Both the position numbers and the translations under genes were made by a program. From NCBI RefSeq assembly GCF_947503045.1, contig NZ_CANNCF010000002.1, positions 1,023,501 through 1,087,500 on the forward strand: DNA of 64,000 nt. Direction: 5' to 3'. The notes under the pieces were generated by a model, which saw nothing but the letters and a program-made list of their open reading frames with translations, was not told where the DNA came from and did not search any database. This DNA comes from an uncultured Tateyamaria sp. Lineage in GTDB: Bacteria; Pseudomonadota; Alphaproteobacteria; Rhodobacterales; Rhodobacteraceae. Positions 7,795-54,975 of this stretch are shown piece after piece (position 1 is the first letter of the stretch; every line of letters begins with the position of its first letter).

Positions 7795-8213
7795 GTTACT
7801 GGCGGAATCGCTTGCAAATCCGGCGCGACAAAGGCGGCGCGCGCCGCGTCGGAAAAGAGCGTGTCCTTGCGGTAGTGCGTCAGCATGATCCGGGTATCAA
7901 GCAACCGGTCGTCCCGGCGCAGAAAACTGTCAAAGGACTGTGCATGCACCGCCTTGTCCATGAAGTAGCGCACGGCCAACAGCCACGACCGGGTAAGCGT
8001 TTCGTGATACTTGCCCGGGGGCACGCCGTTGCGTTTCAGGAACCCCATCAACGCGGTTCGCATCCGGTCCATCGCGATATCCACGCTGGCCTCGCTCAGA
8101 TAGACATAGGCAAGGCGCAGGTGCGCACGGTGGTTGAACTCCTCCGGGGCAACCTCTCCGGCCTCAAAACGGGCTCGGAAATCCAGATCGTCAGGTGATG
8201 GCATCATTGTCAT
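7791..8213 (-). CDS. Conserved hypothetical protein (140 aa)
   Basis: Not recognised beyond looking like a real gene. The start at 8213 has a strong AAGGAGG 6 nt upstream. The frame is open further upstream to 8273 but would run toward polA. The product is a soluble, mostly helical protein with EEFNHRAHLRLAYVYLSE near residue 25, an LTRSWLLAVRYFMDK helix and a C-terminal DTRIMLTHYRKDTLFSD region. The histidines in NHRAHLRLAY could be functional. It heads the three-gene minus unit with MmcQ/YjbR and YdeI-like proteins and lies 22 bp downstream of the polA stop, so it may also be read from the polA transcript. Confidence 0.75.
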   Translation of the reverse strand: MTMMPSPDDLDFRARFEAGEVAPEEFNHRAHLRLAYVYLSEASVDIAMDRMRTALMGFLKRNGVPPGKYHETLTRSWLLAVRYFMDKAVHAQSFDSFLRRDDRLLDTRIMLTHYRKDTLFSDAARAAFVAPDLQAIPPVT

Positions 8214-8235
8214 CGTCGGCCTCCTTGGCTTGGTC

Positions 8236-11031
8236 CTAATGCGCCTCCGCCCAGTTCTGCCCTTGTCCTGCATCCACCGTCAGATTGACGTCCAGATGCA
8301 CCACCGGGTCGGCGGCACCTTCCATCACGGCGCGGGCAGCAGCGATCAGATCGTCCACAGCGCCGTCCTCCACTTCAAACAGTAATTCATCATGCACCTG
8401 CAACAACATGGCAGCAGGAATGTCCCTGATCGCATCCGGCATGCGGATCATGGCGCGGCGGATCACGTCGGCCGCAGTGCCCTGAATGGGCGCGTTGATC
8501 GCGGCCCGTGCGGCAAAGCCAGCATGCGGCCCCTTGGCCCCGATATTGGGCGTGTGGATGCGACGGCCAAACAGCGTCTGCACATAGCCATGTTCCTTCG
8601 CAAACGCCTTGGTGTCGTCCATATAGGTGCGGATGCCGGGGAAGCGTTCGAAATAGCGGTCGATAAATCCCTGCGCCTCCGCCCGCGGAATGCGCAGGTT
8701 GCGTGCAAGGCCAAAGCCGGAAATGCCGTAGATGACGCCAAAGTTGATCGCCTTGGCCTGACGGCGGATGTCGGGCGTCATGTCTTCCAGCGGGACGTCA
8801 AACATTTCCGACGCGGTCAGCGCGTGGATGTCGATGCCATCATCAAAGGCCTGCTTGAGCTCTGGAATCTTGGCGATATGGGCCAGAATGCGCAGTTCGA
8901 TCTGTGAATAGTCGAGCGCCACCAGCGTCTTGCCCTCCTCCGCGACAAAGGCCTCGCGGATGCGCCGCCCTTCCTCGGTGCGGATCGGGATGTTCTGCAG
9001 GTTCGGATCGGTCGAGGCGAGGCGGCCTGTCGAAGCGCCGGCAATGGAATAGGAGGTATGCACCCGCCCCGTATCGGCGTTGATGTGATCCTGCAGCGCG
9101 TCCGTATAGGTCGATTTCAGCTTGCTGAGCTGTCGCCAGTCCAGGATGCGACGAGGCAGTTCGTGCTCGGTCGCGAGGTCTTCGAGTACGTCAGCACCGG
9201 TGGCATAGGCCCCGGTCTTGCCCTTCTTGCCGCCTTCGATCCCCATCTCGTCAAACAGGATTTCGCCCAACTGCTTGGGGGAGCCGACGTTGAACTTGCG
9301 CCCCACCAGCTCATAGATTTCATCCTCCAGCCCCGCCATCTTTTGCGCAAAGGCATTGGACATGCGCGACAGCGTATCGCGGTCGACCTTGATGCCCGAC
9401 CGCTCCATCGTGGCCAACACGGGCACCATGGGCCGTTCGAGGGTTTCATAGACCTTTGTGACCTGCGCGCGGTGCAGTTGCGGCTTGAACTGCTGCCAGA
9501 GACGCAGGGTGATGTCCGCATCTTCTGATGCGTATTTCACCGCTTCCTCGATAGGCACCTGATCAAAGGTCTTGGCCGACTTGCCAGACCCAAGCAGCGG
9601 CTTGATCGGGATCGGTGTGTGGCCGAGATAACGTTCAGACAGGGTATCCATGCCGTGATTGTGCAGCCCGCCATGCATCGCATAGCTCATCAACATGGTG
9701 TCATCGATCGGGGCCACATTGATACCGATCTGGGCAAAGATCTTGGCATCGTATTTCATGTTTTGCCCGATCTTGAGGATGCTGTCGTCCTCAAGCACGG
9801 GTTTGAGCATCTCAAGCGCCTGTTCCAGCGGCATCTGCCCCTCGGACAGCGCGTCAGAGCCGAACAGATCATCCCCACCCTGCTTGTGGATCAGCGGAAT
9901 GTAACAAGCGTGCCCAGCGTTCACGGCCAGCGAGATCCCGACCAGATCGGCCGTCATTTCATTCAGGCCCGTGGTTTCTGTGTCCACGGCCACATAGCCA
10001 CGCTCGTAGATCAGGTCGATCCATGTTTGCAGCGCTGCGGCGTCCTGCACATGTTCATAGGTCGCATCGTCAAAACCAGGAGCTTCGGGCGCATCGCTGG
10101 CCTCCGGCGCGGTGGGTTCCTTGATCTCGGGCTCTTCCACGCCAAGCTGGTTGGCGATCCGCTTGGTCAGTGTGCGGAACTCCATCTCGGCAAGGAACGG
10201 CATCAGCTGGTCAGGATGCGGGTCGCGCACCTCAAGATCATCAATGGTAAAGTCGAGCGGCGTGTTCTCATCCAGCAAGACCAGCCTGCGCGACAGCCTG
10301 ATCTGATCGGCATTCTCGATCAGGGTCTCGCGGCGCTTGGGCTGCTTGATCTCGCCTGCACGCTCCAGCAGCGCATCCAAATCGCCATATTCGTTGATGA
10401 GAAGGGCCGCAGTCTTGACCCCGATCCCCGGCGCGCCGGGCACGTTGTCCACGCTGTCACCTGCCAGCGCCTGCACGTCGACCACACGTTCGGGGTAGAC
10501 CCCGAACTTTTCGAACACGCCCTCGCGGTCGATGGTCTTGTTCTTCATCGCATCCAGCATCTCGACCCCGTCGCCGACCAGTTGCATCAGGTCCTTGTCC
10601 GAAGAGATGATGGTGCAACGCCCACCGGCGGCACGGGCCTGCACGGCGAGGGTGGCGATGATGTCGTCGGCCTCGTAGCCCTCTTTTTCCTTGCAGGCGA
10701 TGTTGAAGGCCTCCGTCGCCTGACGGGTCAGTGGGATCTGCGGGCGCAGGTCCTCGGGCATGGCCTCGCGGTTGGCCTTGTACAGGTCATACATGTCGTT
10801 GCGAAACGTGTGGCTGCCCTTATCAAAGATCACGGCCACATGGGTGGGGGCATCGGGGCCGGTGTTTCCCTCGACATATTTGTACAGCATGTTGCAGAAC
10901 CCGCTGACCGCCCCGATGGGCAGCCCGTCGGACTTGCGGGTGAGCGGGGGCAATGCGTGATAGGCGCGAAAGATGAATGCCGATCCGTCGATCAGATGCA
11001 GGTGACATCCCTTGCCAAATTGAAGTGCCAT
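8236..11031 (-). CDS. polA: DNA polymerase I
   Basis: 931 residues, full length. N-terminal 5'-3' exonuclease (about 1-290): LIDGSAFIFRAYHALPPL, YEADDIIATLA, ISSDKDLMQLV, and GDSVDNVPGAPGIGVKTA in the helix-hairpin-helix region. 3'-5' proofreading domain (about 330-520) with intact DEDD residues: VAVDTETTGL, GQNMKYDAKI, YASEDADITL. Polymerase domain: motif A DYSQIELRILAHI, motif B RRQAKAINFGVIYGISGFGLAR, motif C QVHDELLFEV. It fills Okazaki gaps and repairs DNA. All three activities should be present. Single gene with its own promoter region (11032-11154). Confidence 0.98.
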   Translation of the reverse strand: MALQFGKGCHLHLIDGSAFIFRAYHALPPLTRKSDGLPIGAVSGFCNMLYKYVEGNTGPDAPTHVAVIFDKGSHTFRNDMYDLYKANREAMPEDLRPQIPLTRQATEAFNIACKEKEGYEADDIIATLAVQARAAGGRCTIISSDKDLMQLVGDGVEMLDAMKNKTIDREGVFEKFGVYPERVVDVQALAGDSVDNVPGAPGIGVKTAALLINEYGDLDALLERAGEIKQPKRRETLIENADQIRLSRRLVLLDENTPLDFTIDDLEVRDPHPDQLMPFLAEMEFRTLTKRIANQLGVEEPEIKEPTAPEASDAPEAPGFDDATYEHVQDAAALQTWIDLIYERGYVAVDTETTGLNEMTADLVGISLAVNAGHACYIPLIHKQGGDDLFGSDALSEGQMPLEQALEMLKPVLEDDSILKIGQNMKYDAKIFAQIGINVAPIDDTMLMSYAMHGGLHNHGMDTLSERYLGHTPIPIKPLLGSGKSAKTFDQVPIEEAVKYASEDADITLRLWQQFKPQLHRAQVTKVYETLERPMVPVLATMERSGIKVDRDTLSRMSNAFAQKMAGLEDEIYELVGRKFNVGSPKQLGEILFDEMGIEGGKKGKTGAYATGADVLEDLATEHELPRRILDWRQLSKLKSTYTDALQDHINADTGRVHTSYSIAGASTGRLASTDPNLQNIPIRTEEGRRIREAFVAEEGKTLVALDYSQIELRILAHIAKIPELKQAFDDGIDIHALTASEMFDVPLEDMTPDIRRQAKAINFGVIYGISGFGLARNLRIPRAEAQGFIDRYFERFPGIRTYMDDTKAFAKEHGYVQTLFGRRIHTPNIGAKGPHAGFAARAAINAPIQGTAADVIRRAMIRMPDAIRDIPAAMLLQVHDELLFEVEDGAVDDLIAAARAVMEGAADPVVHLDVNLTVDAGQGQNWAEAH

Positions 11032-49357: not shown

Positions 49358-50968
49358 ATGAAAAAAGAAATTGTGGCGCAGCTGTCCACGCTCGAGGATC
49401 GCAGCCCGGCCTATGCCATCGTGGGTGAAGTCGATCTGGTTGTGGTGCGCTTTGATGATGAGATTTCGGTGTTTTATGGCCGCTGCCTGCATCGCGGCGC
49501 GTTGATGTCGGATGGTTTCGTGCGCGGCAATAACCTGATCTGCGGATTGCACGACTGGGACTACCGGCTGGACAGCGGCGTATCCGAATACGCCAATGAC
49601 GAGGCGCTGCCCAAGTTCAAAAGCTGGCTCGAAGGGGACAGCATCTGCGTCGATGCGGATGAAATCACGGCCTGGGCCCACGACAACCCGCAACCCTTCA
49701 ACCGCGACTCTTATCTGGGCCTCTATGCCGACACGTCCCACGGAACCGAGGAAGAACCCCATACCGGCCTGATCCAGCAATATGCGCGCGACGGCCTGTC
49801 CAAGACCGGCCACCACGGCAAGGTCGATGCCATGGGCGTGCCGCGCCATACTCTGCCGGACTGGGACGACATCCAGATCCTCACAGCGCAGCTTCACAAA
49901 CCGCCGTTGCTCGACGATCAAGCGGTCAGCACAGAGGTCGTGATCGGCCCCAACGCACAAAAACCCCTGCGCCTCGACATCCCGCTCTTTGTTTCTGACA
50001 TGTCCTATGGCGCGCTGTCCGAACCGGCCAAGGTCGCTCTGGCGCGCGGCGCGGAACTCGCAGGCACCGGCATCTGCTCGGGCGAGGGCGGCATGCTGCC
50101 CGAAGAACAAGAGGCCAATTCCAAATACTTCTACGAACTCGCCTCGGCGCGCTTCGGCTTTTCCTGGGACAAGCTCGACAAGGTGCAGGCGTTCCATTTC
50201 AAGGGCGGGCAAGGGGCCAAGACCGGTACTGGCGGGCACCTGCCCGGCAACAAGGTTCACGGCAAGATCGCCGAAGTGCGCGGGCTGGACGAAGGTCAGG
50301 ACGCGATCTCCCCCGCTCGCTTTCCTGACTGGACGGACCCGTCCCAGATCAAGGATTTCGCCGACGAGGTCCGCGACCGCACCGGCGGCATTCCCATCGG
50401 CTACAAACTCAGCGCCCAGCACATCGAAAAGGACATCGACGCGGCCCTCAGGGTCGGCGTGGACTATATCATCCTCGACGGGCGCGGTGGCGGAACGGGG
50501 GCGGCCCCCATCATCTTCCGCGACAATATCTCGGTGCCGACCATCCCTGCACTGGCCCGTGCCCGCGCGCATCTGGACCGGCTCGAACGGGGGGACGTCA
50601 CGCTGGTCATCACCGGCGGCCTGCGCAAACCGGCCGATTTCGTCAAGGCGCTCGCCCTCGGGGCCGACGCCATCGCGCTGTCGAACTCGGCCATGCAGGC
50701 CATCGGCTGCATCGCCATGCGCGCCTGTCACACCAACAACTGCCCCGTCGGGATCGCCTCGCAAAAACCGCATCTGGTCAGCCGCCTGATCGTCGAAAAA
50801 TCCGCCCGGCAACTGGCCAACTTCTTCGAGGCCAGTACCGAGCTGATGCAGGTCATGGCCCGCGCCTGCGGCCACGACCATCTGAACAAGTTCAACGCAG
50901 GCGACCTGACCACATGGAAAAAGGACATGTCCGACATCTCGGGCGTGCCATTCGGAGGACTGACATGA
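49358..50968 (+). CDS. Rieske ferredoxin domain fused to a glutamate synthase-like FMN/[3Fe-4S] domain
   Basis: 536 residues from the ATG at 49358 (alternatives: ATG 49343, GTG 49319; none has a strong ribosome site). An N-terminal Rieske domain (about 1-95) has [2Fe-2S] ligands in RCLHRGALMSDG (C-x-H) and LICGLHDWDYRL (C-x2-H). A GltS alpha-2-like TIM barrel follows: FVSDMSYGALSEPAKVALA, GICSGEGGMLPEEQ, FHFKGGQGAKTGTGGHLPG, YIILDGRGGGTGAAP, and the [3Fe-4S] motif CIAMRACHTNNCPVGIASQ. The glutaminase and central domains of normal GltB are absent, so ammonia or another amine donor, or a non-amination redox reaction, is likely. It overlaps the next gene (ATGA), another Rieske fusion. Function unknown. 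Confidence 0.9.
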   Translation: MKKEIVAQLSTLEDRSPAYAIVGEVDLVVVRFDDEISVFYGRCLHRGALMSDGFVRGNNLICGLHDWDYRLDSGVSEYANDEALPKFKSWLEGDSICVDADEITAWAHDNPQPFNRDSYLGLYADTSHGTEEEPHTGLIQQYARDGLSKTGHHGKVDAMGVPRHTLPDWDDIQILTAQLHKPPLLDDQAVSTEVVIGPNAQKPLRLDIPLFVSDMSYGALSEPAKVALARGAELAGTGICSGEGGMLPEEQEANSKYFYELASARFGFSWDKLDKVQAFHFKGGQGAKTGTGGHLPGNKVHGKIAEVRGLDEGQDAISPARFPDWTDPSQIKDFADEVRDRTGGIPIGYKLSAQHIEKDIDAALRVGVDYIILDGRGGGTGAAPIIFRDNISVPTIPALARARAHLDRLERGDVTLVITGGLRKPADFVKALALGADAIALSNSAMQAIGCIAMRACHTNNCPVGIASQKPHLVSRLIVEKSARQLANFFEASTELMQVMARACGHDHLNKFNAGDLTTWKKDMSDISGVPFGGLT

Positions 50969-52938
50969 CCGACACTCTGGACTGGATCAGCGTCGGGCAC
51001 ACCGGCGACCTGCCCGAAGGACGGGTCAAGACCGTCACCGCCCGCACCACATCGATTTGCCTCTCGCATTTCGACGGCCAATGGGCGGCGATGAACAACC
51101 ACTGCCCACACCAGCGCGGACCCTTGGGTGAGGGTTCGATCGAGCGCGGCGAGGGTGGCAAATGCTGGATCCGCTGCCCGTGGCACGGCTGGGATTTCGA
51201 CCCGCTGACCGGCAAACCGCCGGGCGGGCACGAGGACACCGGCCAGACGATCTACCCGGTCAAAATTGAAGATGACGAGATTTTTGTGGGGCTCGAGGCC
51301 GAGCCGCCGCACCAGCGCACCGTGTCCGACCAGATGGCCGAAAGCATGGTCAACTGGGGTGTCAAACATGTGTTCGGCATGGTTGGGCACTCGAACCTCG
51401 GTCTGGCTGACGCCATACGGATGCGTGTCGAGGCGGGCGAGATGAAATTCGTCGGTATCCGCCACGAAGGGGCGGCGGCCTTTGCTGCATCGGCCTATGG
51501 CAAGCTGACGGGCCATCCGGCGGCCTGCCTGACCATCGCAGGACCCGGCGCCACGAACCTGCTGACCGGGCTTTGGGATGCCAAGGTCGACCGCGCGCCG
51601 GTTCTGGCGCTCACCGGGCAGGTGCAAACGCAGGTCTTTGGTCCCGGCGCGTTTCAGGACATCGATCTGGCCTCGGCCTTTGCCGCCGTCAGCCGGTTCA
51701 GCCAGACGGTTCTGTCGACCTCGAACCACTCCGAACTGGTCTCGCTTGCGATGAAAAACGCGCTGGTGGAACAGGACGTCGCGCACCTGATCTTTCCTGA
51801 CGACATGCAGACCAACCCGTCAGACAAGCCCGCCAGCACGCCCGACGGGCGCATGGGGCGGGCCGTGATCAAACCGGCAGATACAGACGTCAAGGACGCG
51901 CTCGACCTGCTCAACAGCTCCAAGCGCCCGATCCTCGTGGCCGGTCACGGCGCCTGGGATCATATGGAGGCGATCACAAAACTGGCGAGCGATCTCGGCG
52001 CGCCGGTGCTCACCACGTTCAAGGGCAAGGGCCTGATCGCGGACGATCACCCCAACGCTGCGGGTGTGCTGGGTCGCTCCGGCACGCCCATCGCCAGCTG
52101 GTTCATGAACGAGGCTGACCTGATCCTGACCCTCGGCACCTCCTTTTCCAACCACACCGGGATCGAGAAATCCAAATCGATCATCCAGGTCGATTTCGAG
52201 CGGATGCAACTGGGCAAGTTCCACCCCGTGACCCTGCCCATCTGGGCCGAAATCGGCGCCTTTTGCGAAGCGGTTGGGCCAAACATTAAGCGGCCTGCGG
52301 GCGCCCCGGACCAGATCAGCGAACTGGCCGAACGCTGGGCCATCTGGCGAGACGAGAAACAGACCCGGCTGGGCGAGGAAACCGCCAAGGGCATCCACTC
52401 CGCCGCCATCTTTGCCGCCCTGTCGCGTATCGCACCGGCGGACGCCGTCATTGCCGTAGACGTGGGCAACAACACCTACTCCTTCGGGCGGTACTTTGAG
52501 ACCAAGGGCCAGCGCGTGCTGATGTCAGGTTATCTCGGCTCCATCGGCTTTGGCTTTCCCGCCGCAATGGGGGCCTGGGCTGCGACACAGGATTTCGACT
52601 GGCTCAAAGGGCGCAAGGTGATCTCGATTTCCGGCGACGGCGGCTTTGGCCAATACCCGATGGAACTGACCACGGCCGTCAAATACGGCATGGACATCAC
52701 CCATGTGCTTTTGCACAACGGCGAGCTTGGCAAGATTTCCAAGGAACAGCGCTCAGGCGAATGGCCAGTCTGGGAGACCAACCTGCACAACCCGTCCTTT
52801 GCGGCCTTTGCCAAGATCTGCGGCGCGCATGGGGAAAAGGTGGTGTCTTCGGACGCCATTGAGGCGGCCTTGCAAAAGGCGCTGGATGTGGACGGCCCGG
52901 CGCTGGTCGAGATCATGACAGACGCCGATCTGGTCTGA
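50965..52938 (+). CDS. Rieske domain fused to a thiamine-diphosphate-dependent enzyme (pyruvate oxidase/acetolactate synthase-like)
   Basis: 657 residues from the ATG at 50965. Rieske domain (about 1-105): CPHQRGPLGEGS and CWIRCPWHGWDF give C-x-H and C-x2-H ligands. The ThDP enzyme follows at about 115-655: catalytic Glu in RHEGAAAFAASAYGKLTG, PGATNLLTGLWDAKVDRAPV, the middle domain with RPILVAGHGAW, and the ThDP-Mg motif GDGGFGQYPMELTTAVKYG ending in HN. It resembles pyruvate oxidases in layout. A Rieske cluster as built-in electron carrier is unusual for the family. The tight coupling to the Rieske-FMN-[3Fe-4S] protein suggests an electron-transfer complex: oxidative decarboxylation of a 2-oxo acid feeding a flavin reaction (inference). 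Confidence 0.9.
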   Translation: MTDTLDWISVGHTGDLPEGRVKTVTARTTSICLSHFDGQWAAMNNHCPHQRGPLGEGSIERGEGGKCWIRCPWHGWDFDPLTGKPPGGHEDTGQTIYPVKIEDDEIFVGLEAEPPHQRTVSDQMAESMVNWGVKHVFGMVGHSNLGLADAIRMRVEAGEMKFVGIRHEGAAAFAASAYGKLTGHPAACLTIAGPGATNLLTGLWDAKVDRAPVLALTGQVQTQVFGPGAFQDIDLASAFAAVSRFSQTVLSTSNHSELVSLAMKNALVEQDVAHLIFPDDMQTNPSDKPASTPDGRMGRAVIKPADTDVKDALDLLNSSKRPILVAGHGAWDHMEAITKLASDLGAPVLTTFKGKGLIADDHPNAAGVLGRSGTPIASWFMNEADLILTLGTSFSNHTGIEKSKSIIQVDFERMQLGKFHPVTLPIWAEIGAFCEAVGPNIKRPAGAPDQISELAERWAIWRDEKQTRLGEETAKGIHSAAIFAALSRIAPADAVIAVDVGNNTYSFGRYFETKGQRVLMSGYLGSIGFGFPAAMGAWAATQDFDWLKGRKVISISGDGGFGQYPMELTTAVKYGMDITHVLLHNGELGKISKEQRSGEWPVWETNLHNPSFAAFAKICGAHGEKVVSSDAIEAALQKALDVDGPALVEIMTDADLV

Positions 52939-53177: not shown

Positions 53178-53945
53178 CTATCCCGTGCGGCCCTCAAACG
53201 TCTTCACCGCGATCCCCGCATCCTCAAGCATGCGCCGCACACTGGCCGCAATCTCCACAGCCTCGGGCGTGTCGCCATGACAGCAAATGCTGTCGATGGG
53301 CGTCTCGATCCGGGTGCCGTCCTCGGTGATGATGGCCTGCGCCTTGACCATCTCGACCATGCGTTTGCCTGCAAGATCAGCATCATGGATGATCGCACCG
53401 GGTTTGCGTCGGTCAACGAGCGTGGCATCGGCGTTATACGCCCGGTCGGCGAAAATCTCGCAGGCAAATCGCGCCCCCAGCGACCGCGCTGCGCGTTCCT
53501 GCGCCGTGGCGGCCAGCACCATGACAATGGCATCGGGATGGGCCGACAGGGCGGCCTCGTAACAGCCCCGCGCCATCTCCTCGTTCTCGGAGGTCATGTT
53601 CCCCAACGCACCATGCAGCTTGATATGGCGCACCTCGGCCCCAAGGCTGCGGGCCATTCCAAGGCTTGCGCCCACCTGACAGCGGATCGAATTCTGCAGC
53701 GATTTCAGCGGCATATCAATGCGGCGACGGCCAAAGCCCTGAATGTCGGCAAAGCCCGGATGCGACCCGATCCCGACGCCGCGCTCCAGTGCGATGCCCA
53801 TGGTGGTCGCCATTACATCCGGATCGCCCGCATGGGCGCCACAGGCGATATTGGCCGAGGTCACCGTGTGCAAAAGGGCCGCATCATCGCCCATGGTCCA
53901 GGGGCCAAAGCTTTCGCCCATATCCGCGTTCAGATCGACTTGCAT
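53178..53945 (-). CDS. pxpA: 5-oxoprolinase subunit A (LamB/YcsF family)
   Basis: 255 residues from the ATG at 53945 (AAGGAG upstream; the frame opens earlier at 53999). LamB/YcsF signature: VDLNADMGESFGPW at the start, ANIACGAHAGDPDVM (metal ligands), GSHPGFADIQGFGRR, IKLHGALGN and a C-terminal DSICCHGDTPEAVEIA. With PxpB and PxpC it forms the ATP-dependent 5-oxoprolinase that opens 5-oxoproline to glutamate. It is third in the operon pxpB-pxpC-pxpA, which differs from the more common A-B-C order. Confidence 0.93.
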   Translation of the reverse strand: MQVDLNADMGESFGPWTMGDDAALLHTVTSANIACGAHAGDPDVMATTMGIALERGVGIGSHPGFADIQGFGRRRIDMPLKSLQNSIRCQVGASLGMARSLGAEVRHIKLHGALGNMTSENEEMARGCYEAALSAHPDAIVMVLAATAQERAARSLGARFACEIFADRAYNADATLVDRRKPGAIIHDADLAGKRMVEMVKAQAIITEDGTRIETPIDSICCHGDTPEAVEIAASVRRMLEDAGIAVKTFEGRTG

Positions 53946-53949
53946 GTCG

Positions 53950-54975
53950 CTATTCTCCTTCGTCGAGGTCCGAGTGCATGGCCGAGACCACACCACCAAC
54001 CAATTGATAACTCAACAGATCCTGCATCGTGGCAGGATCGCGCACCAAAGGGGTCACCGTGCCGGGCAACTTGGCCTGCTCCGCATTGGCGCGGGCCTGA
54101 ATGGCGGCCCCATCCTCCAGTGTGACAAAGGCAAAGCGCACATCCGCCCCCGCAGGCGCCTGCGCCACACGCGGCAGATCGCAGGGCAACACGGTGCCGA
54201 TCCGGGGATAGCCGCCCGTGGTCTGGGATTCAGCCATCAACACAAAGGGCGTGCCGTCCCCGGTGATCTGAATGTCGCCGGGCACAATGACTTCGCTCAC
54301 GATGCTGAGCGCCTTGGGGTTCGAAAACCCCTCACCGTCGCTGTCCATCCGGATGCCTTGCCGATTGGCGCGGGGGTCGCGGCGAAATTCCGTGTTTTCA
54401 AAGCGTTGGCGGATCGCGGCATCAAAATCCTCGGTCTGGACACTGGGCACTACGCGCACCGTCCCGCCACTCAGCCGCGCCTCGGGGGTCAGGGTCATGC
54501 CAACGTCGCCTGGTTTGTCAGGGCCGACGGGCAGTACATCCCCCTGCATCACCAGAACGCCAAGGCCGCAGGACAGATGCGTGGCGCGGGATCCCAGCAC
54601 GGGTTCACCGGCAAATCCGCCGCCCACATGCAGGTAGCCATAGGTGCCGGACCGGGTCGGGCCGATGGTCAGCTTCGCGCCCTTGGGCAGGGCATGGCTG
54701 GCGTTCCACGCCACCGCGCTGCCGTCGATCTGTGCCGTCATGACGGCCCCAGTCAGGGCGATGCGCATGTCTTGCGTGGCCTCGAATGTGCCGCCGGTAC
54801 CCACCATTTCGACAACGGCCAATGTCGGGCTTTGCCGCAGCAGGGCCGCCCCTTCGTGCACCGCGCGCACATCCGCAGCCCCACCGCAGGTCAGTCCCAC
54901 GGCCAAAAACCCAGGCCTGCCAAGGTCTTGCAGCGCCATCGCGGGCCCGGCCTGTTGAACAACCAGCCCCCTCAT
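53950..54975 (-). CDS. pxpC: 5-oxoprolinase subunit C (biotin-dependent carboxyltransferase/allophanate hydrolase 2-like)
   Basis: 341 residues. Family landmarks are QQAGPAMALQDLGRPGFLAVGL near the N-terminus (read as two parts), the conserved G-x-A-D opening, TIGPTRSGTYGYLHVGGGF, LGSRATHLSCGLGVL, FEGEGF-type FSNPKALS, and the C-terminal MAESQTTGGYPRIGTVLPCD typical of KipA/PxpC. It overlaps pxpB by 4 bp, and pxpA starts 4 bp after its stop. It couples ATP-derived phosphate transfer to ring opening together with PxpB. Confidence 0.93.
   Translation of the reverse strand: MRGLVVQQAGPAMALQDLGRPGFLAVGLTCGGAADVRAVHEGAALLRQSPTLAVVEMVGTGGTFEATQDMRIALTGAVMTAQIDGSAVAWNASHALPKGAKLTIGPTRSGTYGYLHVGGGFAGEPVLGSRATHLSCGLGVLVMQGDVLPVGPDKPGDVGMTLTPEARLSGGTVRVVPSVQTEDFDAAIRQRFENTEFRRDPRANRQGIRMDSDGEGFSNPKALSIVSEVIVPGDIQITGDGTPFVLMAESQTTGGYPRIGTVLPCDLPRVAQAPAGADVRFAFVTLEDGAAIQARANAEQAKLPGTVTPLVRDPATMQDLLSYQLVGGVVSAMHSDLDEGE

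Follow-up and report, generated by a model that had tools for sequence, protein, structure and literature searches.

With what do two enzymes exchange electrons when each of them begins with a Rieske [2Fe-2S] domain of its own? The question is raised by two overlapping genes in the window, the whole stretch of 64,000 nucleotides from an uncultured Tateyamaria sp. that was analysed. The first gene encodes a fusion of a Rieske domain with a glutamate-synthase-type FMN/[3Fe-4S] protein (P0001, Rieske-GltS), the second one a fusion of a Rieske domain with a pyruvate-oxidase-like, ThDP-dependent enzyme (P0002, Rieske-ThDP). The first-pass annotation knew of no characterised system with this pair and suggested a complex that moves electrons from 2-oxo acid decarboxylation through the Rieske clusters to the flavin site, possibly for reductive amination. 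The open literature searched, which mostly excludes subscription papers, yielded no description of these Rieske fusions.

Architecture of the two Rieske fusions

The domain reading of both genes, made initially from the letters of the DNA, is borne out by a Pfam HMM search and by the ligand and catalytic motifs (Table 1). In P0001, the Rieske match (PF00355, residues 6-77, E 7.6e-11) passes the cut-off and is followed by Glu_synthase (PF01645, E 4.8e-90); the Rieske domains of P0001 and P0002 are detected independently by a whole-genome PF00355 scan. All three cysteines of the [3Fe-4S] motif are invariant among the 11 sequences of alignment A2, and among solved structures the large chains of glutamate synthases are closest to P0001, over query residues 212-510. 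Like the large subunit of glutamate synthase (GOGAT), P0001 combines PF01645, the [3Fe-4S] motif and the residues of the 2-oxoglutarate site: Q285, K288, R308 and E243 are retained and align to what we take to be Q969, K972 and R992 of the A. brasilense enzyme and E903 of the Synechocystis enzyme. In contrast to GOGAT, which starts with a class II glutaminase, P0001 has the Rieske domain in this place; a glutaminase domain was not found among its Pfam matches, and its sole glutamate-synthase NCBIfam match covers the synthase region only (model positions 865-1156 of 1490). The identity to long (about 1500-aa) GltB-type frames is about 31-36%, and the same genome also has a GltB-type frame of 1510 aa. 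An assignment of P0001 to the N-methylglutamate synthase type was ruled out: the genome has another GltS, of 447 aa, next to genes of 225 and 326 aa, presumably the N-methylglutamate synthase subunits, and in the tree P0001 groups with Rieske-bearing proteins, far from stand-alone GltS of that kind.

Table 1. Features of the locus (positions in the window; residue numbers of the encoded proteins)
Feature	Position	Strand	Basis
TetR-type regulator, 95 bases upstream of P0001	48703..49263	+	PF00440
P0001, Rieske-GltS-type FMN/[3Fe-4S] protein, 536 aa	49358..50968	+	Pfam PF00355 + PF01645
P0001 Rieske ligand motif C43-x-H45 ... C62-x2-H65	49484..49552	+	motif reading, inside PF00355 match
P0001 Glu_synthase domain, residues 191-505	49928..50872	+	PF01645
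P0001 [3Fe-4S] motif C451-x5-C457-H-x3-C462	50708..50743	+	motif reading
P0002, Rieske-ThDP (pyruvate-oxidase-like) enzyme, 674 aa	50914..52938 (likelier start 50965)	+	Pfam PF00355 + PF02776/PF00205/PF02775
P0002 Rieske ligand motif C64-x-H66 ... C88-x2-H91	51103..51186	+	motif reading, PF00355 match
P0002 ThDP enzyme N-terminal domain	51319..51669	+	PF02776
P0002 catalytic Glu E185 (RHEG motif)	51466-51468	+	motif reading
P0002 ThDP enzyme central domain	51889..52272	+	PF00205
P0002 ThDP enzyme C-terminal domain	52459..52914	+	PF02775
P0002 GDG 574-576 ... N602	52633-52719	+	motif reading

P0002 shares with PoxB/POX and the acetolactate synthases the three ThDP domains (TPP_enzyme N/M/C, E 6.6e-33, 3e-34 and 3.4e-31), the catalytic Glu, FQ and GDG..N; it differs from PoxB/POX by its N-terminal Rieske domain (residues 24-102, E 2.4e-16) and by its other end. 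Its best solved relative is PoxB (3eya/3ey9). The alignment runs from residue 3 to residue 527 of the 572 in PoxB and leaves just 5 residues of P0002 at the end, so that the C-terminal tail of PoxB, presumably its membrane-binding part, is absent. P0002 also stays below the cut-offs of the best 25 of 56 matched NCBIfam models, the equivalog scores being 378.6 of 742 bits for the best one (PRK08611) and 308 of 792 for PRK09124. The two genes do overlap, as annotated before, but probably by less: with the likelier start, ATG at 50965 rather than 50914, the overlap shrinks from 55 bases to 4 (ATGA), and a -3 gap is seen in the relatives L068, L071 and L080 too.

The motifs are not peculiar to this genome. 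RHE, GDG..N, FQ and the Rieske motif are kept in 78/78 complete ThDP ORFs (4 with long N-termini, the other 74 read together) at 80 loci, which are among the matches listed, were partly picked by a Rieske peptide pattern and give no measure of Rieske absence. Rieske presence was checked on the ThDP matches from samples of 101 and 397 genomes, picked without any Rieske pattern: 28 of 28 start at query residue 1-23, and all therefore include the Rieske domain.

Conservation of the gene pair

The pair is kept together in related bacteria and salt-loving archaea, but it is not obligate. A GltS relative lies near Rieske-ThDP at 49 of the 80 loci (among the matches listed), and the GltS and ThDP distances correlate (r 0.84, n=49 loci; Mantel test, without species-tree control), which is not the rare co-occurrence with uncorrelated phylogeny that the first-pass annotation named as its refutation. 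Where both ORFs are present (45 loci), the genes share a strand at 36 and are divergent at 9 (L094, whose GltS is a different one, is excluded from this count; the GltS ORF of L093 starts within its Rieske domain). In same-genus relatives with both genes, these are full length with 88-93% identity, which rules out chance or a frame artefact. Genes in unannotated loci were called from their length, with or without codon-position GC as a second criterion, seven loci were omitted from one locus listing, and the p-values calculated are uncorrected for relatedness. The ThDP enzyme is widespread and occurs in records titled proteobacteria, acidobacteria, planctomycetes, myxococci and others, as well as on haloarchaeal plasmids and one mycobacterial plasmid; on the haloarchaeal plasmids, the genes lie near merA, DsrE, peroxiredoxin, pirin or DUF302 genes.

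Each gene is also found alone. In the 397-genome sample, GltS of the P0001 family is present in 9/9 ThDP genomes (own genome included), while GltS genomes number 37 and 28 of these have no ThDP partner, which is missing from G036 as well. Within the genus, G002, G004 and G012 have ThDP without GltS; among 29 further ThDP genomes, 12 have GltS elsewhere in the genome, and in 17, many of them MAGs whose completeness may be partial, it was not found at E<=1e-120. In G010, G013, G014, G015 and G016, a relative of the TetR-type gene (62-70%) directly precedes the pair, and in G004 and G012 one directly precedes ThDP; judging by gene order, a link of this gene with the pair within the genus is likely, and its regulation of the pair is putative.

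These distributions bear on the strictest form of the initial proposal, in which the two proteins form an obligate complex and decarboxylation of a 2-oxo acid by the ThDP enzyme directly powers the GltS-type site through the two Rieske domains, for NAD(P)H-independent reductive amination. Adjacent genes with some ATGA-type overlaps, a mostly common strand, correlated distances and the retained 2-oxoglutarate-site residues speak for such a complex, against which stand the occurrence of either gene without the other, the TetR gene directly before ThDP in G004 and G012, where GltS is gone, and the divergent loci; we regard an obligate complex as unlikely. The retained 2-oxoglutarate-site residues fit the suggested reductive amination.

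Replacement of Rieske by CDGSH domains

In one GltS clade, tandem CDGSH [2Fe-2S] domains are found in place of the Rieske domain. In a tree built without rows whose core is interrupted by a stop or whose match spans <330 columns, CDGSH-GltS (14 rows and L158, at whose N-terminus neither CDGSH nor Rieske is seen) forms one side of a branch with support 100/96, and Rieske-GltS does so in 0/200 bootstrap trees: CDGSH-GltS is a single clade placed among the Rieske type. Tandem CDGSH fused to the FMN-binding domain of glutamate synthase has been described as type 5 CISD (Lin et al. 2011, PMC3174974), in a paper whose main text does not contain the word Rieske. Like P0001, these proteins have a GltS-type core (59-61% overall identity to P0001 in L047-L050, 69-70% over residues 126-536 in L029 and L030) and an N-terminal [2Fe-2S] module, without glutaminase in L047; unlike in P0001, the module is tandem CDGSH, recognized by Pfam in L047 and by alignment in L048-L050. 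On two Vibrio plasmids, CDGSH-GltS has GNAT, Dps and LysR genes nearby, without clear function.

The ThDP side can carry CDGSH as well: four ThDP proteins have the order CDGSH+CDGSH+Rieske, and one of them adjoins a CDGSH-GltS. At L124, the two adjacent partners each carry CDGSH, and G487 has CDGSH on both partners too. A strict matching of wire types is disfavoured because of L133/G518, where CDGSH-GltS occurs together with a Rieske-only ThDP, and of L138 and L140, where ThDP has CDGSH and GltS was not found in the genome search.

A membrane protein as the third Rieske fusion

A further fusion escaped the first-pass annotation because its gene lies elsewhere in this genome, outside the window (G000:C1:1097295-1098329): a ferric-reductase-like membrane protein with a C-terminal Rieske domain, present at 30 of the 80 loci (among the matches listed). 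All 31 members of its cluster carry the Rieske ligands and, ahead of the Rieske domain, five invariant His. Like MsrQ, the heme-binding subunit of MsrPQ, it has a ferric-reductase-like part that matches PF01794, and it matches MsrQ itself weakly (33.1 bits, cut-off 130); unlike MsrQ, it ends in a Rieske domain and is accompanied by c8, a one-TM partner. For c8 there was no confident Pfam match, and its predicted structure, a TM helix with beta-rich domains, gave weak OB-fold-type matches and none at E<=0.001; a DUF5996-like partner protein (predicted structure with mean pLDDT 90.4) had no match at E<=0.001 either. A K+/H+-antiporter-like gene also recurs; no other accessory family matched >5 of the 123 neighbour ORFs scanned (139 were listed, and 16 very long, near-repeat or doubtfully called ones were dropped by hand). 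The membrane module of a Rhizobium plasmid has genes of the sigma-70 and chlorite dismutase families in its vicinity.

In the 101-genome set, which shares some genus members with the 80 loci, the membrane protein is present in 15/15 Rieske-GltS and 17/19 ThDP genomes. At E<=1e-60, it was not found in 6/13 Rieske-GltS and 2/9 ThDP genomes of the 397-genome set, nor was it found in the haloarchaeal stretches examined. The protein offers another electron partner for both enzymes, and the pair could then consist of two dehydrogenases, the ThDP enzyme acting on a 2-oxo acid and the GltS-type one on glutamate or some other amino acid, each of which would deliver electrons to the membrane protein. 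The potential of mitoNEET-type CDGSH domains is above that of Rieske ferredoxins, so that CDGSH in place of Rieske fits a higher-potential acceptor and would disfavour electron flow into 2-oxoglutarate. Two dehydrogenases with a common membrane partner are nevertheless improbable, since the GltS-type protein keeps the 2-oxoglutarate-site residues of an aminating enzyme and the membrane partner was not found in part of the 397-genome set.

Instead of acting as electron wires, the [2Fe-2S] domains might also sense redox state or oxidants and turn the enzymes on or off in a stress-response system, as the gene neighbours on the haloarchaeal and Rhizobium plasmids could suggest. A swap between two electron-carrier folds is, however, easier to understand if the domain conducts electrons than if it is an allosteric sensor, and no family, stress-related or other, recurred beyond the above limit among the sampled neighbours, which leaves a sensor role very unlikely.

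A proposed modular set of [2Fe-2S]-wired oxidoreductases

The reading that we favour, tentatively and at somewhat less than even chances, is a modular group of cytosolic oxidoreductases, wired by [2Fe-2S] domains, that share electrons mutually and with a membrane module. P0001 and P0002 would each use their own [2Fe-2S] domain for electron exchange. The ThDP enzyme most likely oxidises a pyruvate-like 2-oxo acid, and its electrons would leave via its Rieske domain, not directly to quinone or O2 as in PoxB/POX. The GltS-type enzyme most likely takes up electrons at its [2Fe-2S] domain, passes them to [3Fe-4S] and FMN and, with free ammonia as the nitrogen source, aminates 2-oxoglutarate or one of its close analogues. 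The ferric-reductase-like Rieske protein and c8 may form a shared membrane inlet or outlet, and the enzymes would usually act together but could act singly. We infer here the bound clusters and hemes, the electron route and its direction, the substrates, the physiology and any complex formation. Counting against this reading are the frequency of GltS without ThDP (37 versus 9 genomes in the 397-genome sample), the 17/29 ThDP genomes without detected GltS and the genomes from which the membrane protein is missing. A bolder extension, which we regard as distinctly improbable, is a network of three Rieske fusions with a CDGSH alternative that makes glutamate without NAD(P)H: electrons from ThDP-dependent decarboxylation would feed the glutaminase-free GltS, the Rieske-bearing b-type membrane protein would balance the pool, and the K+/H+ antiporter would pair glutamate with K+ in marine and halophilic cells.

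Implications

New here are the third Rieske fusion, the CDGSH-for-Rieske clade, the CDGSH+CDGSH+Rieske ThDP proteins and the recurring K+/H+-antiporter-like gene. The exchange of Rieske for CDGSH on one catalytic core is a natural comparison of two [2Fe-2S] folds. If the favoured reading is true, CDGSH-GltS proteins (type 5 CISD), for which no function was found in PMC3174974, would gain a testable context, and fused Rieske or CDGSH domains could link ThDP and GltS chemistry, replacing NAD(P)H, ferredoxin or quinone. A Rieske-wired enzyme pair together with a similarly wired membrane protein points to an undescribed electron-sharing system.

Domain architecture of two overlapping genes

The first-pass annotation had read two neighbouring genes as Rieske fusions, P0001 (Rieske-GltS) and P0002 (Rieske-ThDP enzyme). 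Domain searches bore this reading out: all motifs are present, with the catalytic and ligand motifs of both proteins intact, and no glutaminase domain was found in searches of P0001. From the likelier start of P0002, the two genes overlap by four bases (ATGA). Their Rieske domains are 19% identical over 64 residues and, judged by their sequences, are no recent duplication of one another. In an alignment to solved glutamate synthases, residues at the 2-oxoglutarate site, which we take to be those binding this ligand, are kept in P0001. Elsewhere the same genome has a GltB-type frame of full length (1510 aa) and a GltS of about 447 aa that stands alone; P0001 is thus one of several glutamate-synthase-type enzymes there. 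The remnants of a second pair at locus L053 comprise the start and end pieces of both genes, the middles missing, between an antiporter-like gene on one side and DUF5996-like and c37-like genes on the other. Among the 5-oxoprolinase-type genes, which are probably unrelated to the pair, the PxpA-like member scores above a subfamily cut-off and the PxpC-like member below cut-off.

Positions of the pair and of related or neighbouring features
Feature	Position	Strand	Description
P0001	49358-50968	+	Rieske, then glutamate-synthase FMN domain with [3Fe-4S] motif
P0002	50914-52938, likelier start 50965	+	Rieske, then three domains of a pyruvate-oxidase-like ThDP enzyme
5-oxoprolinase-type subunit genes	53178-54975 (window)	-	convergent to the pair
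L053 remnants	G000:C5 (own genome), about 8000-8600	-	short pieces remaining from a second pair of GltS and ThDP genes
Membrane module	G000:C1:1097295-1098329 and around (own genome)		distant from P0001/P0002
ORF of L204	11231-11848 (genome G474)		205 aa, weak likeness to ferric-reductase-Rieske protein; near Rieske-GltS, no ThDP in genome

Conservation of the pair

Among 101 related genomes, 15 encode full-length Rieske-GltS (identity >= 76%), 19 Rieske-ThDP (E<=1e-80) and 14 both; the figures for the 20 genomes of the same genus are 11, 14 and 11. An even sample of 397 genomes across the phylum, own genome included, holds GltS of the P0001 family in 37 (E<=1e-150), which makes it the commoner gene, and the ThDP enzyme in nine, own included, all with GltS (Rieske type in eight, CDGSH type in one, G487). 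The hypergeometric probability of this co-occurrence is 2e-10 when genomes are counted and 1.9e-7 when genera are, both ignoring relatedness. The pair, which the first-pass annotation had proposed as an electron-transferring complex, proved conserved in a neighbourhood survey. When named genomes were searched with nine aligned ThDP proteins, at least 569 relatives turned up among 591 stretches; in 49 of the best 80 a GltS piece (identity >= 60%, length >= 120 aa) lies in the flank. For 29 of the other 31 loci (all except L094 and L122), a genome-wide search found Rieske-type GltS elsewhere in 11 and CDGSH-type in one (G518), and no GltS at E<=1e-120 in 17. Distances among P0001-like and P0002-like proteins correlate over 49 loci (r 0.84; 0 of 2000 permutations as high), a set that adds three haloarchaeal plasmids and the window to 45 of the 80. 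On four haloarchaeal plasmids (L060-L063) the ThDP gene sits amid redox and metal genes that differ between plasmids (merA, DsrE, TauE, pirin or DUF302), and on three of them so does Rieske-GltS, at 1.4 to 17 kb from it; on the Halorarius plasmid an antiporter gene directly follows ThDP.

The pairing is not obligate, since three genomes of the same genus (G002, G004, G012) keep ThDP at 88-89% with no Rieske-GltS found, and one in the 101-genome search (G036) has GltS without ThDP. The two genes are divergent in 9 of the 45 loci having both ORFs. A TetR-type gene precedes P0001, and its relatives (62-70%) sit directly 5' of the pair in five genomes (G010, G013, G014, G015, G016), which suggests, from gene order, that it may control the pair in this genus; in G004 and G012, where Rieske-GltS is absent, it lies directly upstream of ThDP.

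Exchange of Rieske for CDGSH domains

In four relatives of P0001 (L047-L050), Rieske is replaced by two CDGSH domains in tandem. PMC3174974 describes this architecture as type 5 CISD, which resembles P0001 in that a [2Fe-2S] module stands N-terminal to a GltS core, CDGSH in the one and Rieske in the other; PMC5859297 mentions CDGSH alongside Glu_synthase and also alongside Rieske_2 domains. The combination is thus already known in its CDGSH form. In the 397-genome set, the match to P0001 begins at residue 1-6 (Rieske type) in 13 of the 37 GltS genomes and at residue 109-130 in 24; all seven of the latter that were inspected (L174-L179, L205; L173 left out for an in-frame stop) are of the CDGSH type. 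In a tree of 59 GltS rows (thinned from 107 dereplicated, 141 original), CDGSH-GltS forms one clade (support 100/96) that includes L158, at whose N-terminus neither CDGSH nor Rieske was seen. In none of 200 bootstrap trees does a single branch set Rieske-type GltS apart from the rest; support is moderate (93/87 and 88/91) at the forks that set CDGSH within the Rieske lineages, and the rooting depends on a long outgroup branch.

Tandem CDGSH domains also stand ahead of Rieske in four ThDP proteins, three among the 80 loci (L124, L138, L140) and one in G487 (L203, G487:C23); these ORFs are 744-777 aa long. At L124 the adjoining GltS is likewise of the CDGSH type, the CDGSH modules of the two proteins being 57% identical, and G487 has CDGSH-GltS alongside. 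Matching between partners is suggestive but not strict, because no GltS was found for L138 and L140 (genome search, E<=1e-120), and G518 pairs CDGSH-GltS with a Rieske-only ThDP.

A third Rieske fusion and other companion genes

Neighbourhood clustering revealed a recurring third fusion with a ferric-reductase-like first part and a Rieske end (PF01794, E 6.8e-11; PF00355, E 2.4e-15; one member scanned), present in 30 of the best 80 of at least 569 loci, in 29 with its one-TM partner c8 and often with two small TM proteins. The Rieske ligands are kept in 31 of 31 members, and five His ahead of the Rieske domain are fully conserved, as would suit ligands of a presumed heme b. Many c8 members carry a GEICDGKC...CANLC motif; across the 16 members aligned, the KC, H and later C residues never vary. 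The complete gene order antiporter - GltS - c12 - ferric-reductase-Rieske - c8 - c27 - ThDP (c12 and c27, further clusters) occurs at L072, L084 and L086, and shortened forms are common. The membrane protein is found in 15 of 15 Rieske-GltS and 17 of 19 ThDP genomes of the 101-genome set, and in 7 of 13 and 7 of 9 of the 397-genome set. On two Rhizobium plasmids (L159, L160), a Rieske-domain gene lies together with c8, with no GltS among the genes listed within about 7 kb; at L159, genes for TetR, a sigma-70 family factor and a chlorite dismutase family protein lie nearby. The 205-aa ORF of L204 may, as a guess, be MsrQ.

Among the same best 80 loci, a potassium/proton-antiporter-like gene (named from PF00999 and NCBIfam matches below cut-off) occurs in 21, and GltS is present at 20 of these. 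Twelve loci have a DUF5996-like gene and five the TM protein c37. The DUF5996 name comes from a single member, L093, which at 31.3 bits passes the cut-off of 25; L126 reached 13.3 bits, while no match was obtained for L109 or L137. In a family scan of 123 sampled neighbours, every further family matched 5 at most.

A possible electron-transfer scheme

The [2Fe-2S] domains may serve as electron wires: the ThDP enzyme would donate electrons, the GltS-type site would accept them and aminate 2-oxoglutarate, and the Rieske membrane protein would be a partner common to both enzymes. Potentials of mitoNEET-type CDGSH domains lie near 0 mV and would favour the opposite direction, glutamate oxidation at the GltS-type site. 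The domain, association and swap data fit the scheme of ThDP donor, GltS acceptor and membrane partner. The redox module is real and conserved, built of known domains and apparently undescribed; since an antiporter gene is among its companions and many of its hosts are marine or halophilic, it may be linked to K+ and salt.
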